A stretch of DNA of 54,527 nt from SAR202 cluster bacterium. Lineage in GTDB: Bacteria > Chloroflexota > Dehalococcoidia > Lucifugimonadales > Lucifugimonadaceae. This document shows positions 4,427 to 24,015 of this stretch, one piece after another. Positions within the stretch are counted from its first letter, which is position 1. Each line of letters begins with the position of its first letter. A program made the translations under genes and the position numbers. Where the stretch lies: positions 1 through 54,527 of the forward strand of contig VFGZ01000040.1 of assembly GCA_009392215.1 (NCBI GenBank). The letters run 5' to 3'. The notes under the pieces are model-generated. The model had not been told where the DNA came from. It saw nothing but the letters and a program-made list of their open reading frames with translations, and did not search any database.

Positions 4427-6019
4427 TTATGGAATTGCATATCCAGCCAATATGCCGGTTACCGATTCGTTTTCAACCGCTATCTCACCGTTAACTATCA
4501 CATAGGGCACACCTTCGGGGTGCAGGTTGGGATCCTCGAATGAGGACCTGTCATTTACCTTTTTTTCATCGAATATGACGAGATCCGCGAATTTATCTTT
4601 TTTGATCACCCCGCGATCTGTTAGGCCAAACCTTTCCGCAGGATTTTGGGTCATTCGTTGCACTACTTGCTCTAATGGGTAGTTGTATCTACGTCGCAAC
4701 CGTCCAACTAGTCGAACAAAGCAACCATAGGCACGCGGATGAGGCATGCCGCCAACTGGAATGGAGTCAGATCCAACCATGTAATCTGTGCGTGCCATTA
4801 AGCTCATCACATCTTCTTCTACCTGCCTCCACAATCCAACGTTACCCGGAGGAGCAACTCGCATTCCGCAAGTGAGAGACGTTTCAACCATCATTCGGCA
4901 CATCATTTCTTCCACACTTACTTCCCATTCTTCAGCAACATCCTTAAATAACCACCCCTCAAACCTCTGGTCTCCCTTGTCTCCTATATGCGTCCAGACG
5001 TTTTCTCTTGGGTCTGTATAGTCGATTTCGCTCATTTTGTCGATTAATATTTTTCGGTCCTCTGTATCGGTGAGAATTTTTAGCATTGCTTCCGGTCCGC
5101 CTTCATGGAAATAGCTAGAAAAGAAGGCTTGCGGGAATGATGAACCGACAGGATACGGGTACGTTTCAAGAGTGATATCGACTCCTGATGACTTCGCTTC
5201 GTCGATAGGTTCCATGAGCTTGCCTATTTGCCCAGCTGAATCAGCGGTAGTTCGGTAGTGTTCGAAGTGTAGTTTTGTATCGGTTCGTCGGGCGATTTCT
5301 ATTGCTTCTGGTATACCACCCCCACCATATGCCCTGTCGATATTGTGGTTTCGCAGGTGAATAGACATAGGTCGATCGAACTCTTTTGTAATCTTCATTA
5401 ATTCACATAGTTCGTCGGTGTTGGACCAGCTGTTCGGGTAATAAGAGAGGCCGGTGGAGAATCCAACAGCGCCCTGCTCAAGAGATTCTCTCAGTAAAAT
5501 TTTAGCGGTCTTTAACTCATCATCGATCAATGGGACATCATTCATCCCAGCCGATTCGAGTCTTATAGGGCCGTGACCAGCGAATGTAGCAACGTTGCAT
5601 GAGGTTTTACGGTGGTAATGTTTTTTTGACATTTCAATGGAAGACATGTCAAGTTGCTCTGGAGCCAGCCCGAGAATTCCTGATAAATACCATCTATACA
5701 TTTCGTAGTTTTTCTTTGAAAGTGGAGCAAGAGACAGTCCGTCAGGACAAATAATTTCAGTTGTGACTCCCTGGCGAATACCGTTGCTGTGTTGGCCATC
5801 ATTCAACAGCGCAGCATCTGCATGAGAATGGACGTCTATAAAACCGGGTGAAATATGGAGGCCTGAGGCGTCTATTGTTCTGGTGGAGTCGGTGCTCGAA
5901 TCCGGAATGATGTCGAGAGCTTTAATGCGGTCGCCACTTATTCCGATGTCTGTACGTCTGGGAGGCGTTCCAGTTCCGTCAACAACGGTTCCACCTTTAA
6001 CGACTAGATCAAATGTCAA
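4427..6019 (-). CDS. N-acyl-D-amino-acid deacylase-like amidohydrolase
   Basis: A 530-residue metal-dependent hydrolase of the D-aminoacylase branch. The N-terminal beta-sandwich (KGGTVVDGTGTPP) leads into the barrel with HSHAD at residues 64-68, the HxH metal pair. Later come the histidines of HLRNHN and HFEHYRT and the catalytic aspartate in VGSDSIPVGG followed by PHPRAYG, a set typical of D-aminoacylases and related dihydropyrimidinase-like enzymes. The expected reaction is hydrolysis of an N-acyl-D-amino acid or cyclic amide in the cytosol. Many environmental paralogues of this group have unknown substrates, so the substrate is left open. Confidence 0.85.
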   Translation of the reverse strand: MTFDLVVKGGTVVDGTGTPPRRTDIGISGDRIKALDIIPDSSTDSTRTIDASGLHISPGFIDVHSHADAALLNDGQHSNGIRQGVTTEIICPDGLSLAPLSKKNYEMYRWYLSGILGLAPEQLDMSSIEMSKKHYHRKTSCNVATFAGHGPIRLESAGMNDVPLIDDELKTAKILLRESLEQGAVGFSTGLSYYPNSWSNTDELCELMKITKEFDRPMSIHLRNHNIDRAYGGGGIPEAIEIARRTDTKLHFEHYRTTADSAGQIGKLMEPIDEAKSSGVDITLETYPYPVGSSFPQAFFSSYFHEGGPEAMLKILTDTEDRKILIDKMSEIDYTDPRENVWTHIGDKGDQRFEGWLFKDVAEEWEVSVEEMMCRMMVETSLTCGMRVAPPGNVGLWRQVEEDVMSLMARTDYMVGSDSIPVGGMPHPRAYGCFVRLVGRLRRRYNYPLEQVVQRMTQNPAERFGLTDRGVIKKDKFADLVIFDEKKVNDRSSFEDPNLHPEGVPYVIVNGEIAVENESVTGILAGYAIP

Positions 6020-6195
6020 TAGAATTCTTCTTTCACTTGATAGCAGATTCCAATCGAGGTTGGCCTCGGCGGATCTGCGTCTACAACGCGTCTTGTCCGG
6101 GTATTATATGGCGGTTGGTAGCCCCCAAGTTATGTAGTTGCATTCGGTTTAGTCGATAGTGGGTATTTCAAAAATTTAGTAGCGAGGCAAAATTT

Positions 6196-7137
6196 ATGGG
6201 AAGGTTTGATGATCGAGCCGCGATTGTTACTGGTGGTGCGCTGGGTATTGGCGGTGGATGTGCGAGACGATTAGCAGGGGATGGCGCCAGCGTTTTGATT
6301 GTTGATATTAATGAAAAATCGGGATTGGAAACGGTCAAAGAGATTCGTGCGTCAGGTGGCAAAGTTGAGCTGATGATCGGTGATGTCGCTAACGAGTCAG
6401 TGTCTTCTGAAATGGTTGAAAAAACGATGTCTTTGTTTGGACGGCTAGATCTACTGGTACAGAATGCTTACGGAGGTGGTTCAGACGTTGCGGGCTCTGC
6501 GGTTGATGTTACCAAAGAGGCGTGGAATAAAGGGATGGATCTTCTCGTGGGGGCTTTGTATCTCGGAGCAAAGTTTGGTGTGCCTGCAATGGAAGAATCA
6601 GGAGCCGACCCGAATTTTGTACCTCCTGTGTGGGTAGGTGCTGGCCGTCGCCATGGGCCGAGACCAAGAGAGAATGTCGGACGGATAGTAAACATGTCGT
6701 CTGTTCATGGTTTGTTGAACGCACCTCGCTCTTTGGTATACGAGTCTGGAAAAGCTGCAGTGATAGGTCTCACTCGACAGATGGCTGTCGATTTCGGTCC
6801 TATGGGCATTACAGTCAACGCTATCGCACCGGGCCATATTGTTACCGAAAGAGGGGATGAGATGTGGAATGAGGTCGGAAACGATGCCGGGTTTAAGTTG
6901 TTTGAAATTCAATACCCTGTTCGACGTACCGGTATTCCAGCTGATATCGCCAATGCTGTTGGCTTCCTTTGTTCGAATGAAGCATCGTTTATTAATGGTC
7001 AAATCTTAGCTGTCGATGGTGGGTTGTCCATCCAATTGCAAGAAGACATTGTGATGGATACTAAAGATTATATTGTGTCTAACCCCCATCTACGTACACA
7101 TTTTGACAATAAACCTGAAAAGAGCGATCGCTGGTAA
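6196..7137 (+). CDS. Short-chain dehydrogenase/reductase
   Basis: A 313-residue classical SDR. The cofactor motif TGGALGIGGG is at residues 12-20, an acidic residue (D37) ends the second strand and suggests NAD preference, the catalytic serine is in NMSSVHG (about S168) and the YxxxK pair is Y182/K186. The NAG motif reads QNAYGG. A loop of about 30 residues (roughly 133-160, rich in Gly, Arg and Pro) is inserted before the catalytic-serine strand, and a 40-residue tail follows the usual VDGG end. Both make it longer than typical SDRs of about 250 residues. A GAGG ribosome-binding site precedes the ATG. Substrate is unknown; an alcohol or sugar is likely. Confidence 0.87.
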   Translation: MGRFDDRAAIVTGGALGIGGGCARRLAGDGASVLIVDINEKSGLETVKEIRASGGKVELMIGDVANESVSSEMVEKTMSLFGRLDLLVQNAYGGGSDVAGSAVDVTKEAWNKGMDLLVGALYLGAKFGVPAMEESGADPNFVPPVWVGAGRRHGPRPRENVGRIVNMSSVHGLLNAPRSLVYESGKAAVIGLTRQMAVDFGPMGITVNAIAPGHIVTERGDEMWNEVGNDAGFKLFEIQYPVRRTGIPADIANAVGFLCSNEASFINGQILAVDGGLSIQLQEDIVMDTKDYIVSNPHLRTHFDNKPEKSDRW

Positions 7138-20147: not shown

Positions 20148-20492
20148 CTAGTTGAACCACTCTGAATCGAATGCTAGTGACATTGGGCACCACCAGTCGT
20201 TTTCGGTTGCTTCAGGGACTTTTTGTTGGAAAGTGGACATTAGATCGTTCCATTCTTCGGCTCGCTTTGATTCTGTGTAACCTTGGAAATCTCTACGAGG
20301 ATCGAATTCGTCTGGAACCGTGCAATACATGAACAGGTGGTTGCCGCTTCGGAAAATCTCCATCCGTTCAATTCCGATTCCTTTTAGTGCCTCAATAACT
20401 TCTGGCCAGACGTTTCGATGGTATTCCTCGTATTTGGCAATTATTTCGGGGTCATCTTTTAGATCCAGCACTTGAGCTATTGATTTTGACAT
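20148..20492 (-). CDS. L-rhamnose mutarotase-family protein (leftward copy)
   Basis: About 114 residues from the ATG at 20492 (MSKSIAQVL). It has the RhaM fold features: a ferredoxin-like alpha/beta barrel with the histidine in EYHRNVWPEVIEALKGIGI, the IFRSGNHLFMYCTV strand, and a tryptophan pair near the end (ENDWWCPMS). RhaM interconverts the alpha and beta anomers of L-rhamnose; relatives act on L-fucose and other sugars. The usual C-terminal EVFH is replaced by SLAFDSEWF. A divergent paralogue starts 124 bases away on the other strand, with a shared upstream region. Confidence 0.82.
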   Translation of the reverse strand: MSKSIAQVLDLKDDPEIIAKYEEYHRNVWPEVIEALKGIGIERMEIFRSGNHLFMYCTVPDEFDPRRDFQGYTESKRAEEWNDLMSTFQQKVPEATENDWWCPMSLAFDSEWFN

Positions 20493-20616
20493 TCGTTTTC
20501 TCTCCACTTCAAAAGGGATGGGTGTGTTGTATTAGGCTGATTTCGATCGGCGCATGGCCTACACTTTGCAGCATATGAAATATCGCCCAATTGTAAGCTT
20601 GTAAAGGATGAATGTT

Positions 20617-20940
20617 ATGCAGCGCGTGGGATTTGAGATGAAAATTCACCCCGAAATGGTGGAAGAGTATAAACAGCGTCACGATGATATATGGCCTGAA
20701 ATGTCAGATGCTCTGGTCCGTACGGGATGGCGGAACTATACGATTTTTTTTAAAGATGACGGGACATTATTCGGATACGTTGAATGTGAAGAGTCATTTG
20801 AAGTGTCACTGGATGGAATGTCTAGGGAGGAAGTGAATCAGAAATGGCAAGACGACATGTCACCTTTCTTTCAACTTCCCAAAGGGGCTCATCCTGATAA
20901 AAATATGATCCAATGGCGAGAAGTTTTTCATGCTGATTAG
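20617..20940 (+). CDS. L-rhamnose mutarotase-family protein (rightward copy)
   Basis: 107 residues from the ATG at 20617, chosen because AGGA lies 8 bases upstream and MQRVGFEMKIHPE is the normal RhaM opening (an ATG at 20608 is in frame but lies inside the ribosome-binding region). The catalytic histidine is in KQRHDDIWPEM, the YTIFFKDDGTLFGYVE strands follow, and the C-terminus ends WREVFHAD, as in authentic L-rhamnose or L-fucose mutarotases. It is closer to classical RhaM than the leftward copy. It opens the run that contains the selenoprotein, 28 bases before the next gene. Confidence 0.88.
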   Translation: MQRVGFEMKIHPEMVEEYKQRHDDIWPEMSDALVRTGWRNYTIFFKDDGTLFGYVECEESFEVSLDGMSREEVNQKWQDDMSPFFQLPKGAHPDKNMIQWREVFHAD

Positions 20941-20968: not shown

Positions 20969-22006
20969 ATGAATAAACCGAAACGCCTCCACTCTGAATT
21001 AATAGAAACTCCAGACGCACTTGAAGCTATCGAAATTTACTTTAATAAAGGCTGGTCAGACGGGCTTCCTGTTGTACCAGCCACACCTGAATCGGTATGG
21101 GCAATGCTTGAAACGGCTAATCTGTCTCCGGAGTCGATACTTGGTATAGAGCCTGTAAAAGGTGCTGTAATCACAGCTGAAAAAGCGGCGATCAATGCGG
21201 TGATGGCAGGTTGTAAGCCGGAGTACATGCCCGTAATTGTTGCTGCGGTCGATGCAATCACAAAACCAGAGTTTAATCTCCATGGAATCACGGTCTCCAC
21301 GATGGGGGCCGCAATAATGATTATTGTGAATGGTCCCATCACCAAACAACTTGAGATTAATTCAGGAGTTTCGGTATTTGGCCCAGGCTATAGAGCTAAT
21401 GCGACCATTGGTCGTGCGGTCAGATTAATTGTCATGAATGTGCTCGGAACCCATAGTAAGGATGGACTTGATAAAGCTACTCTTGGCCATCCTGGAAAGT
21501 ACACATGGTGTATCGCCGAGAATGAAGAATTCTTACCTGCTACATGGGAGTCGTTGAGTGTAACTAGAGGTGTTGTTGAGACACAAAGTGCCGTAACCGT
21601 AGTTTCCGGACTAAGCGCAACCCAGTTTGGCGAACATGAAGCTAATACACCCGAAGCAATTCTTGATGCATTTGCCGAGCGTCTTTATCCGATGGGTCCA
21701 GGAGTGGAGGAGGTTGTCCTGGCTATCTGTCCCGAGCATATTGCTCACTTCGATAAGGCGGGTTGGAGTAAACAACAAGTCGGGCAGTATTTATTCGAAA
21801 ATGCATGTAAATCAGGTTCGGATTGGGCTGCCATGGGTCTTCCTGCAGGTCAAGACGACCAGCCAGTAAGTGTCCTGGCTTCACCTGAATCGGCAATTCC
21901 TATTGTTATTGGCGGTGCAGGAGGGGCTTGGAGTGCGGTCATACCAACCTGGTCACTAGGAACACGATCCAAAGTTGTTACGCGCTCTATCATCACAAAC
22001 GGGTAA
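20969..22006 (+). CDS. Protein of unknown function encoded directly upstream of the UGSC selenoprotein
   Basis: A 345-residue soluble protein that I cannot place in a named family with confidence. Conserved-looking blocks are GWSDGLPVVPATPESV (28-43), MAGCKPEYMPVIVAAVDAI with one cysteine, VNGPITKQLEINSGVSVFGPGYRANATIGRA, GHPGKYTWCIAENEE, and a C-terminal IVIGGAGGAWSAVIP. The Gly-rich GPGYRANATIGRA block and WCIAENEE look like ligand-binding or active-site loops. There is no signal peptide and no membrane segment. The 22-base gap to the selenoprotein gene and the common direction suggest that the two proteins work together. A metal- or thiol-dependent enzyme is possible but unproven. Confidence 0.75.
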   Translation: MNKPKRLHSELIETPDALEAIEIYFNKGWSDGLPVVPATPESVWAMLETANLSPESILGIEPVKGAVITAEKAAINAVMAGCKPEYMPVIVAAVDAITKPEFNLHGITVSTMGAAIMIIVNGPITKQLEINSGVSVFGPGYRANATIGRAVRLIVMNVLGTHSKDGLDKATLGHPGKYTWCIAENEEFLPATWESLSVTRGVVETQSAVTVVSGLSATQFGEHEANTPEAILDAFAERLYPMGPGVEEVVLAICPEHIAHFDKAGWSKQQVGQYLFENACKSGSDWAAMGLPAGQDDQPVSVLASPESAIPIVIGGAGGAWSAVIPTWSLGTRSKVVTRSIITNG

Positions 22007-22028
22007 TATGGCATTATAGGAGTCGAAA

Positions 22029-22574
22029 ATGGCAGAAGAAAAATCATTTCAAGTCTTAGATCCGACAGCAACGCTGTCTGTAGCTACTGCTGGCATGGCT
22101 GATCGGCCCAATTCTCTTGAGGGCATGCGCATTGGACTCTTGCGCAATGATAAATTGAACTCAGAATCACTTTTGGATGCTATTTATGATGTTCTCTCAG
22201 AACGTTTTGAATTCGCAAACGCGTATCGAGTAAATAAAGGTGATGCATCTCGTCCAGCAGATCCTGATTTTCTATCTGATTTTTCTAATGAAGTTGATGT
22301 TGCACTCCTGGCAAATGGGGACTGAGGAAGCTGTTCGTCGTCCAGTGTGTACGACTCACTCAAGCTAGAAGCACTAGGTGTACCTGCGATCGCAATTTGT
22401 ACCGAGCCATTTGAATCCGGCGCTCAAGCTATGGCGAATCTGGGTGGAATACCGGACTATCCATTTGTAATAATTCAGCATCCGATTGGCAGTCTAACAC
22501 CTGAACAAATCAGAGAACGAGCTATTGAAGCTGCACCGCAGATCATACAATCTTTGATAGCTCGTAGAGTGTAG
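22029..22574 (+). CDS. UGSC-family selenoprotein (in-frame TGA read as selenocysteine)
   Basis: One 181-residue protein if the TGA at 22323-22325 (codon 99) is read as selenocysteine. Conventional calling would split it into a 98-residue protein and an unstarted fragment. Around the TGA the codons read Gly-Asp-Sec-Gly-Ser-Cys-Ser-Ser, the U-G-S-C motif that names a selenoprotein family known from marine metagenomes; homologues without selenium have Cys there. The frame continues without other stops through LKLEALGVPAIAICTEPF and ends at a normal stop. A hairpin of bacterial SECIS type begins 11 nt after the TGA. An AGGAG site precedes ATG 22029. The Sec-x-x-Cys pair suggests thiol/selenol redox chemistry; the reaction is unknown. 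No selA, selB, selC or selD is in the window. Confidence 0.93.
22329..22366 (+). promoter_or_regulatory. SECIS-like hairpin for selenocysteine insertion
   Basis: An upper stem GTCGT (22337-22341) pairs perfectly with ACGAC (22351-22355) around a 9-nt loop CCAGTGTGT. If T22350 bulges and C22342 pairs with G22349, the loop becomes CAGTGT with a central GU, as in SelB-binding hairpins. A lower stem AGCTG (22329-22333) can pair with CAAGCT (22361-22366, one bulged A). The upper stem begins 11 nt after the TGA, the spacing known for the E. coli fdhF element. It lies inside the coding frame, as bacterial SECIS elements do. Confidence 0.75.
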
Positions 22575-22627: not shown

Positions 22628-23533
22628 GTGATCCCTCCATTCATAGATACGCACCACCATCTCTGGGACCTTGAGAACAACCCCTATCCGTGGCTTGTCG
22701 AACCCATTGATCATTTTGTCGGCGACTACTCGGCCATTCGCAAATCATGGCTTGTTAGCGACCTTCACGAGGGAGCGAAAAACGTGCCGCTTATAAAGTC
22801 CGTTCACGTTCAGGCTGAATGGGACCATAACCTAGATCCAGTTGGTGAAACTATCTGGTTGCAGTCTGTAGCTGACGATCCTGGCTCGCGTGGTATGCCA
22901 AACGCTATCATCGGATTTGCAGATCTCTCGGATCCCGATGTTGAATCGACTCTTGAAAGGCATGCTGATAATGCCAACTGGCGTGGTATCCGCCATATGC
23001 TCAATTGGTCTGACGATAAGGTGAACTTTCGATTCGCCGGATCTGGCGGATTGATGTCGGATAGTCAATGGAGGGAAGGGTTTAAATTAATCGGAAAATT
23101 TAACGGCTCATTCGATCTGCAAATTTGGCCTTGGCAACTTGAGGAGGCAGCCAGACTCGGGAATGACATTCCTGAAGTACCCATTATCCTCAACCATACC
23201 GCAATGCCCATCGGCCGATCTCCTGGTGAGCTACGGGAGTGGCGTAAAGGGTTAGAGTCACTGGGTGAAGCGCCCAACGTATCTGCCAAGATATCCGCTT
23301 TAGGAATGCTGGATCAGACTTGGGATGCTGAATCGATTGCTCCGTTTGTATTAGACATCATCGATATTTTAGGTGTGGATCGTTGTATGTTCGGGTCTAA
23401 TTTTCCAGTGGACAGTCTTTTTAGTGACTACGAGACAGTCTGGAAGGCATACGACGAAATAACGTGTGACTTTACAGACTCTGAACGTGCCAAACTCTTT
23501 TGTACAAACGCCGAAAAGTACTACAGAATCTGA
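22628..23533 (+). CDS. COG3618-type amidohydrolase (sugar lactonase-like)
   Basis: A 301-residue TIM-barrel hydrolase with a GTG start. Active-site features are IDTHHHLWD at residues 6-14 (HxH), HVQAEWD, the histidine in NHTAMP and the catalytic aspartate in FGSNFPVD. This is the amidohydrolase subgroup that holds L-fucono-1,5-lactonase, L-rhamnono-gamma-lactonase and 2-pyrone-4,6-dicarboxylate hydrolase. Next to a rhamnose/fucose mutarotase gene, hydrolysis of an aldonolactone from a deoxy sugar is the most economical reading. It lies 53 bases after the selenoprotein gene in the same direction. Confidence 0.85.
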   Translation: MIPPFIDTHHHLWDLENNPYPWLVEPIDHFVGDYSAIRKSWLVSDLHEGAKNVPLIKSVHVQAEWDHNLDPVGETIWLQSVADDPGSRGMPNAIIGFADLSDPDVESTLERHADNANWRGIRHMLNWSDDKVNFRFAGSGGLMSDSQWREGFKLIGKFNGSFDLQIWPWQLEEAARLGNDIPEVPIILNHTAMPIGRSPGELREWRKGLESLGEAPNVSAKISALGMLDQTWDAESIAPFVLDIIDILGVDRCMFGSNFPVDSLFSDYETVWKAYDEITCDFTDSERAKLFCTNAEKYYRI

Positions 23534-23535
23534 TA

Positions 23536-24015
23536 ATGCCAGTAGTTCAAAGTATCTATCACACAGGCTTTATTGTTGAAAACCTTGACAGGGCTCTTGA
23601 GTTTTATACACAGGTTTTGGGGATGGATATCGAACGGGAGCCTACCCTTTCTGATACCCCTTGGTTATCTGAGGTAGTGGGCTATCCAGATGTAATCATG
23701 CGTCAGGCATATGTAGGTGTCGGAGATGGACACTCAATAGAGCTCATCGAATATATCCACCCAAGGGGCGAAGTTAGATCCGATCAGATTGATCGCAATA
23801 GGCCCGGATCGGCACACGCAGCCATGGTGGTTGACGATGTCCCGGCATGGCGGGAACGGATTGAGGCATTAGGAATCAAGGTTTTTGGCCCTAAATACGA
23901 ACGAGATCTTGGGTATCCATGGGCAAGGTATGCAATATATTTTCAGGATCTTGACGGAAATTGGTTAGAAATGGTGTCACGTGATTCCAAGCCCGAAGAT
24001 TCTAAAGCGAACTAG
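23536..24015 (+). CDS. VOC-superfamily protein
   Basis: 159 residues from the ATG at 23536, 2 bases after the stop of the amidohydrolase gene. An earlier in-frame TTG inside that gene is not favoured. The fold is read from SIYHTGFIVENLDRALEFYTQVLGM, GHSIELIEYIHP, SAHAAMVVDD and the final DGNWLEMVSRD. Metal-ligand candidates are the first-strand histidine, H in SAHAAM, and the glutamates in IELIEY and NWLEM. It resembles glyoxalase-type dioxygenases and epimerases; the reaction is not assignable. Tight spacing puts it in the same transcript as the selenoprotein. Confidence 0.85.
   Translation: MPVVQSIYHTGFIVENLDRALEFYTQVLGMDIEREPTLSDTPWLSEVVGYPDVIMRQAYVGVGDGHSIELIEYIHPRGEVRSDQIDRNRPGSAHAAMVVDDVPAWRERIEALGIKVFGPKYERDLGYPWARYAIYFQDLDGNWLEMVSRDSKPEDSKAN

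Follow-up and report, generated by a model that had tools for sequence, protein, structure and literature searches.

What does the UGSC family of selenoproteins do, and with which protein does it act? A gene in the 54,527-nucleotide stretch of SAR202 cluster bacterium DNA that we analyzed (the window) raises this question, with a reading frame that runs on through an internal TGA. In the available portions of the literature cited here (PMC2398784, PMC13188914, PMC9312934, PMC10298544, PMC7539508, PMC9402790 and PMC5029168), the GOS table lists UGSC in 255 forms with Sec and 21 with Cys, and the family makes up 8.2% of the selenoprotein genes in a 2021 set. A May 2026 review counts it among proteins with functions largely uncharacterised, and both that review and the 2008 GOS paper place it as thioredoxin-like in the portions available. 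We propose, with a probability of about 0.6, that the gene at 22029-22574 encodes the selenocysteine (Sec) subunit of a two-subunit, thioredoxin-linked reductase, and that the partner subunit is encoded at 20969-22006. The argument draws on the following features.

20608-20940, forward strand: RhaM-like gene (PF05336, L-rhamnose mutarotase family), 28 bp upstream of the partner gene and present in 7 of 7 near relatives
20969-22006, forward strand: putative partner subunit gene, 345 aa, ending 22 bp before the UGSC gene
22029-22574, forward strand: UGSC-family selenoprotein gene, 181 aa, from ATG 22029 to TAG 22572-22574, with Sec predicted at residue 99
22323-22325, forward strand: TGA, predicted to be read as Sec; in alignments it lies opposite the Sec of GrdB/PrdB-type reductases
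22337-22355, forward strand: SECIS-like stem-loop of 8 pairs (nt 15-22:26-33, numbering from the T of the TGA) with a GTG loop
22628-23533, forward strand: Amidohydro_2 hydrolase gene, directly 3' of the UGSC gene, with a downstream counterpart at 5 of the 7 near-relative loci
23500-24015, forward strand: glyoxalase/VOC-fold protein gene, shared by 5 of the 7 near-relative loci

The frame proved to be exactly as the earlier note had given it, from the ATG across the TGA to the final stop, and the family that the note had named was confirmed, as the joined 181-residue protein exceeds both curated cut-offs. PF24696 matches residues 8-176 at 180.2 bits (cut-off 25; E 5e-53) and NF041046 matches residues 32-176 at 139.9 bits (cut-off 125). 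Both matches continue across the TGA, and UGSC is the only Pfam family found in the protein. AGGAG (22018-22022) lies 6 nt 5' of the ATG. Translation through the TGA gives ...LLANGD-U-GSCSSSS... around Sec99, and the U-G-S-C motif and Sec/Cys alternation are common to this protein and the family known from GOS as 'UGSC-containing protein'. Recoding is local, as had also been claimed, because TGA is the usual stop of 9 of the 44 non-overlapping window ORFs of at least 150 codons, including the next gene at 22628-23533.

Taken as a true stop or a sequencing error, the TGA would leave a truncated gene or a pseudogene. The open tail of 82 codons has a chance probability of about 0.01 (1%) from base composition, which alone is weak evidence against that reading. 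However, the TGA is kept in all seven of the nearest relatives recovered by contig search (SAR202 and other Chloroflexota MAGs, 81-98% identity). Substitutions after the TGA, counted at codon positions 1/2/3, number 1/1/20, 4/1/36 (L062), 5/1/36, 3/1/37, 3/3/35 and 4/2/35 in six of these loci; the seventh, L060, has none. Judged from these sequences, purifying selection is acting downstream of the TGA, with changes mainly at third codon positions. Among 400 genomes of the phylum, the UGSC profile gave at least 90 matches in 42 genomes, where copies per genome are lower bounds (the best 8 candidates at most were scored in each). Judged by profile coordinates, the Sec position is reached by 88 of these 90, and exactly one TGA is present in 85 of the 88. 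Wide flanks were read for all of the 90 but five (both G164 matches, G241, G065 and G305:C174). Across the 93 copies read at E <=1e-10, a single TGA lies within the domain in 90, at the aligned position and in a U-x-x-C context. Homologues on plasmids of haloarchaea, Proteobacteria and Actinomycetota have Cys at the Sec position in six of seven cases and TGA in one.

The machinery for Sec insertion, to which the earlier note had tied its claim, is complete. The host genome, an assembly of 1.81 Mb in 69 contigs with 85% completeness, yields a single match above cut-off for each of selA (513 bits), selB (330 bits) and selD (374 bits), together with a tRNA-Sec for which ARAGORN reads the anticodon tca; a second match above the Rfam tRNA-Sec cut-off is an ordinary tRNA-Ser. 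We therefore regard the probability that TGA simply ends this gene as minimal, and the codon at 22323-22325 is almost certainly decoded as Sec. The host selD (G000:C22:5859-6788) itself has one in-frame TGA inside the gene, as in Sec-containing SelD. The plasmid homologue with TGA is that of Acidovorax sp. T1 (L183:4992-5282; NZ_CP021650.1:70245-70535), where the annotated product, a short hypothetical protein, ends at the TGA and the same stem-loop sequence pattern lies 3' of it. TGA is missing from the Sec position in three copies (L124:6308-6808, L144:10391-10882 and L146:433-933), and L124 has Cys there with the rest of the GSC motif absent. Activity may have been changed or lost in some of these copies.

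A SECIS-like element could be traced at the level of the family, where we found both covariation and position-specific folding. The 45 nt directly after the TGA have a mean folding z of -1.01 (sem 0.11, n = 81 copies), and ten other offsets gave -0.39 to +0.20. This test used 40 mononucleotide shuffles each for 81 of the 90 TGA copies (80 at downstream offsets), leaving out the 3 copies without exactly one TGA. For covariation, 72 of the 90 copies were kept after a 90% identity filter and aligned without gaps on the TGA. The family stem-loop begins 11 nt past the TGA; in the register 15-22:26-33, standard pairs fill 78% of cells on average, and shifting the 3' side by 1 to 4 nt lowers this to 22-51%. 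Four of the eight pairs covary (19:29, 20:28, 21:27 and 22:26) to an extent unmatched by 2000 column shuffles, where both folding and column shuffles ignore kinship among copies. The outer pairs 15:33, 16:32, 17:31 and 18:30 gave no significant covariation in the 72 copies (p 0.07 to 1). Both bases of pair 21:27 stand at third codon positions; the pair is C-G in 37 copies and G-C in 27, a flip beyond what protein coding alone explains. In the window stem-loop the register is intact but for a single C-U mismatch. Its own 50 nt after the TGA fold no better than their shuffles (z +0.97); thus, the case for the element comes from the family.

The earlier note had held the reaction of the family to be unknown. 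Literally this still stands, but the note had overlooked the gene upstream and the link to glycine and D-proline reductases. The upstream gene has no Pfam or NCBIfam family, and 50 members of its own family gave only scattered chance matches to these collections. It accompanies UGSC almost everywhere. We examined 94 UGSC copies, or 93 without the partial L093, including that of the window and its seven close relatives. In 83 of the 93 the partner is part of the same chain or lies next door: fusions number 28, all with UGSC first, and in 55 copies the two genes adjoin on one strand, in either order and with a gap of at most 251 bp. Among the remaining 10, the partner is further off in five, on the other strand in one and absent from the stretch examined in four, two of which are close to a contig start. 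Within the 400 genomes, UGSC and partner each occur in 42 and both in 41 (Fisher p 1e-53, phylogeny ignored; partner copies per genome are likewise lower bounds, the best 5 candidates at most having been scored in each). Only G251 had UGSC without a partner match, and only G073 the reverse. On plasmids, too, the two genes are neighbours in each of the 7 records found, which come from Halobacteria, Alphaproteobacteria, Betaproteobacteria and Actinomycetota; altogether, the taxa bearing the pair here are Chloroflexota, Proteobacteria, Actinomycetota and haloarchaea. Very probably, then, to judge from gene order and co-occurrence, UGSC and its partner form a two-component unit with near-obligate pairing.

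The sole other UGSC match in the host genome is a 556-residue chain with a C-terminal part homologous to the partner (G000:C37:25753-26259; L030:5739-7409). This fused paralogue has a UGSC domain with TGA and a UGTC motif, and differs from the window unit in being one chain rather than two genes and in having an Ldh_2 family gene next door. A UGSC/Unknown_1 fusion is reported in the portion of the 2008 GOS paper available. In a fused subfamily of twelve loci (L131-L136 and L138-L143), H-U-S-T-C replaces D-U-G-S-C. Cysteine C82 of the partner is not invariant, being present in 55 of 59 separate and 10 of 23 fused partners. Two haloarchaeal plasmids have different partner genes on both sides of a Cys-type UGSC gene (L181:3929-4921 and 5590-6591; L184:3840-4865 and 5541-6539), a layout that suggests a three-subunit version.

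We find that the Sec domain itself is probably homologous to that of the GrdB/PrdB selenoproteins, as far as profile comparison can tell. The GRDB genes of the phylum, translated across their TGA, have a collinear motif, GVDAVILTAT-U-GTCTRCGATMAKEIERAGIP, with EVDVALLANGD-U-GSCSSSSVYDSLKLEALGVP as its counterpart in the window protein. Aligned with hhalign, the UGSC and GRDB profiles score 63.3 (Prob 95.6; E 1.2e-8, which refers to a single pair and not to a database) over 84 columns at 23% identity, with Sec on Sec. The highest scores among the controls were 24.3 for 100 column shuffles, 37.6 for 100 shuffles with the motif kept and 25.2 for 30 other neighbour families; the real UGSC profile scored 41.6 with its motif masked and 19.6 when reversed. 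Masking was applied to the real profile, and shuffled columns were run with the motif either shuffled or kept. Against the PrdB-like genes of the phylum, the UGSC profile gave Prob 76 (77 on repeat). Furthermore, 50 UGSC members gave weak matches to TIGR01917 GrdB (24 members, best 2.2e-4), GrdF (14), PrdB (9), TIGR01918 (8) and GrdH (6); besides UGSC and the GrdB/PrdB-type families, none was matched by more than 4 of the 50. The UGSC profile comprised 47 of 70 representatives and 3 near relatives, without the fused HUSTC subfamily. From 20 GRDB loci, 7 rows went into the GRDB profile and 8 into the PrdB-like profile; L151, L155, L156, L164 and L166 were left out of both.

The kinship is remote. 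The window protein falls far below the family cut-offs (10.9 against 602.2 bits for TIGR01917 and 13.7 against 300 bits for TIGR04483), so UGSC would be kin of selenoprotein B and not a member. What it shares with GrdB/F/H (PF07355, TIGR01917/01918) is a remotely homologous Sec-bearing C-terminal domain with a U-G-T/S-C motif, whereas the N-terminal half of GrdB is missing from the 181-residue UGSC protein, as is a GrdE-like partner. PrdB of D-proline reductase (TIGR04483) is likewise a short Sec protein, but the PrdB-like genes of the phylum have a UPxC motif in place of UGSC, and the UGSC partner gave no match to a PrdA/GrdE-type family. The PF07355 match stops just 5' of the in-frame TGA in L147-L150, L152-L154, L157-L163 and L165, so the GRDB Sec domain lies outside that model. 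In the available portions of the literature, we found no text linking UGSC to GrdB; those naming both treat them as separate families.

Other origins for the two subunits were considered and rejected. By profile comparison, the partner is not GrdE (hhalign Prob 0.1 against GrdE-type genes of the same phylum; their profile was built from 6 ORFs picked by eye, and Pfam confirmed the 1 that was checked), nor is it part of GrdB (Prob 0.3), and UGSC is not a duplicated partner domain (Prob 0.6). PF09338, the GrdE-type proprotein, is absent from the 12 families matched by the 50 partners at E <=10; it weakly matched 1 of 50 UGSC members (E 0.065), but the UGSC and GrdE profiles show no match to each other (Prob 0.8).

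A thioredoxin-like fold has been presumed for UGSC in the literature portions available, whereas the fold predicted here is not that of thioredoxin. The AlphaFold model (50-row alignment, Cys for Sec) has a pLDDT of 93.7 and alternating beta/alpha structure, in which residue 99 comes after the third strand (91-97) and before helix 100-115. Foldseek returned 1615 PDB matches for it, and the 50 listed are all weak, include flavodoxin-like proteins and lumazine synthases, and contain no thioredoxin. A fused pair was modelled with pLDDT 85.8 and pTM 0.88; its Foldseek matches were also weak (4 of 1730 at E <=0.001), with no recognisable partner fold among the 50 listed. Searches of PDB sequences with UGSC, partner, GRDB and PrdB gave no convincing relative. 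One of them returned no match at all; in the others, dehydrogenases, a ketoreductase, a pelota protein, a protein disulfide oxidoreductase and designed or coiled-coil proteins came up at chance level, and the PrdB-like profile matched glutaredoxins at chance level (E 0.26 to 1.2).

Where would the electrons come from? Ten partner ORFs have thioredoxin-like N-terminal extensions, with CxxC in eight; of the others, L105 has CPTS, and L085, possibly incomplete, has no CxxC. Nine extensions were compared with Pfam. Two pass, L105 clearly (AhpC-TSA, Redoxin) and L076 narrowly (Redoxin), six have sub-threshold matches (thioredoxin, glutaredoxin, AhpC-TSA or TraF among them) and L112 has none. Thioredoxin-reductase-type genes with CxxC adjoin the unit in five Chloroflexota loci (L090, L134, L136, L142 and L143), and in Roseovarius UGSC is followed by a gene annotated as trxB. 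All but L090 of these five loci belong to the fused H-U-S-T-C subfamily. Among those neighbours in the window that were compared with Pfam, none is a thioredoxin gene. The available portion of PMC10298544 describes glycine reductase as using a thioredoxin dithiol, with a selenoether as the proposed intermediate, and says that thioredoxin was ruled out for D-proline reductase. Kinship alone is therefore no proof of thioredoxin for UGSC. Dithiol supply is pointed to by the extensions on some partners and the thioredoxin reductase genes beside some units, and we lean, with some reserve, toward a thioredoxin-type reductant for the unit.

The surrounding genes hint at the setting. Upstream of the unit, two RhaM-family genes stand back to back and divergent (20148-20507, reverse strand, and 20608-20940, forward strand), both in 7 of 7 relatives. 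The VOC gene at 23500-24015 is probably in the same operon, and one of the two near-relative loci without the hydrolase and VOC genes, L064, is a short locus. Together, the hydrolase, VOC and RhaM-like neighbours suggest a catabolic pathway. Elsewhere the neighbour families include CoA transferases, TRAP transporters and luciferase-like monooxygenases. A tally over 92 of 95 neighbour ORFs (without L100:4369-5703, L105:4738-5271 and L117:7446-8546) gave Pyr_redox_2 5, SBP_bac_5 3 and Amidohydro_2 3, with some of the ORFs in GC-rich loci probably spurious; no single conserved pathway was seen among the 92. Because neighbour genes vary between clades, one reduction serving several catabolic pathways is suggested.

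These observations can be assembled into a reaction scheme, for which our degrees of confidence are judgements and not computed values. The partner would bind and activate a substrate that is small and probably a carboxylate. The selenolate of Sec99 would then attack carbon and displace a leaving group, giving a selenoether, after which Cys102 of U-G-S-C would attack Se, releasing the reduced product and leaving a Se-S bond. A thioredoxin-type dithiol would restore the selenol. For carbon-selenium chemistry at Sec99, we consider the odds to be even. A bolder reading, tentative and in our estimate somewhat more apt to fail than to hold, is that UGSC and its partner constitute a third, largely aerobic branch of the glycine/D-proline reductase superfamily, in which a new substrate-activating subunit replaces GrdE and stubborn organic acids are cleaved. 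The conserved MAGC cysteine of the partner would perhaps provide a cofactor, and under the same tentative claim carbon-selenium (or carbon-sulfur) chemistry would bring about the reductive cleavage of diverse organic acids. The habitat of the organisms bearing the pair is one that we take to be largely aerobic.

Two other assignments of roles have to be weighed against a substrate-cleaving reductase. UGSC could be a thioredoxin-like thiol or peroxide oxidoreductase, with the partner serving it either as a specific substrate protein or as a docking domain. The UxxC motif, typical of redox selenoproteins, would fit this, as would the Redoxin-type domains fused to some partners and the chance-level glutaredoxin matches of the PrdB-like profile. 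However, the confidently modelled beta/alpha fold, without a thioredoxin among the structural matches listed, and the match of UGSC profiles to GrdB/PrdB both speak against it, and we consider this assignment quite improbable. Alternatively, the partner could be the catalytic enzyme, with a cofactor or substrate site of its own, and UGSC a dedicated electron donor working as a selenol-thiol relay. The distribution of invariant residues favors this division of labor: in profiles of 50 rows (for the partner, 50 of 82 domains), the partner has six (A80, G81, G122, E184, G201 and G315) and UGSC one, with mean column identity alike (37% and 39%). So do the two haloarchaeal plasmids, in which one Cys-type UGSC is flanked by two different partners. 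Yet UGSC aligns with no carrier protein but with GrdB, which the available source text describes as a substrate-binding, NH3-releasing selenoprotein, and separate thioredoxin-type domains exist as possible carriers. A mere donor role for UGSC thus appears unlikely.

A two-subunit, thioredoxin-linked reductase, if correct, is of consequence well beyond this locus, as few selenoproteins are as common as UGSC in ocean metagenomes. The pairing tells what to co-express, and the probable kinship of the Sec domain with enzymes that form carbon-selenium bonds tells which adduct to seek. An upstream gene outside every Pfam and NCBIfam family gains a context, and a long-known but unexplained family gains a reaction that can be tested.
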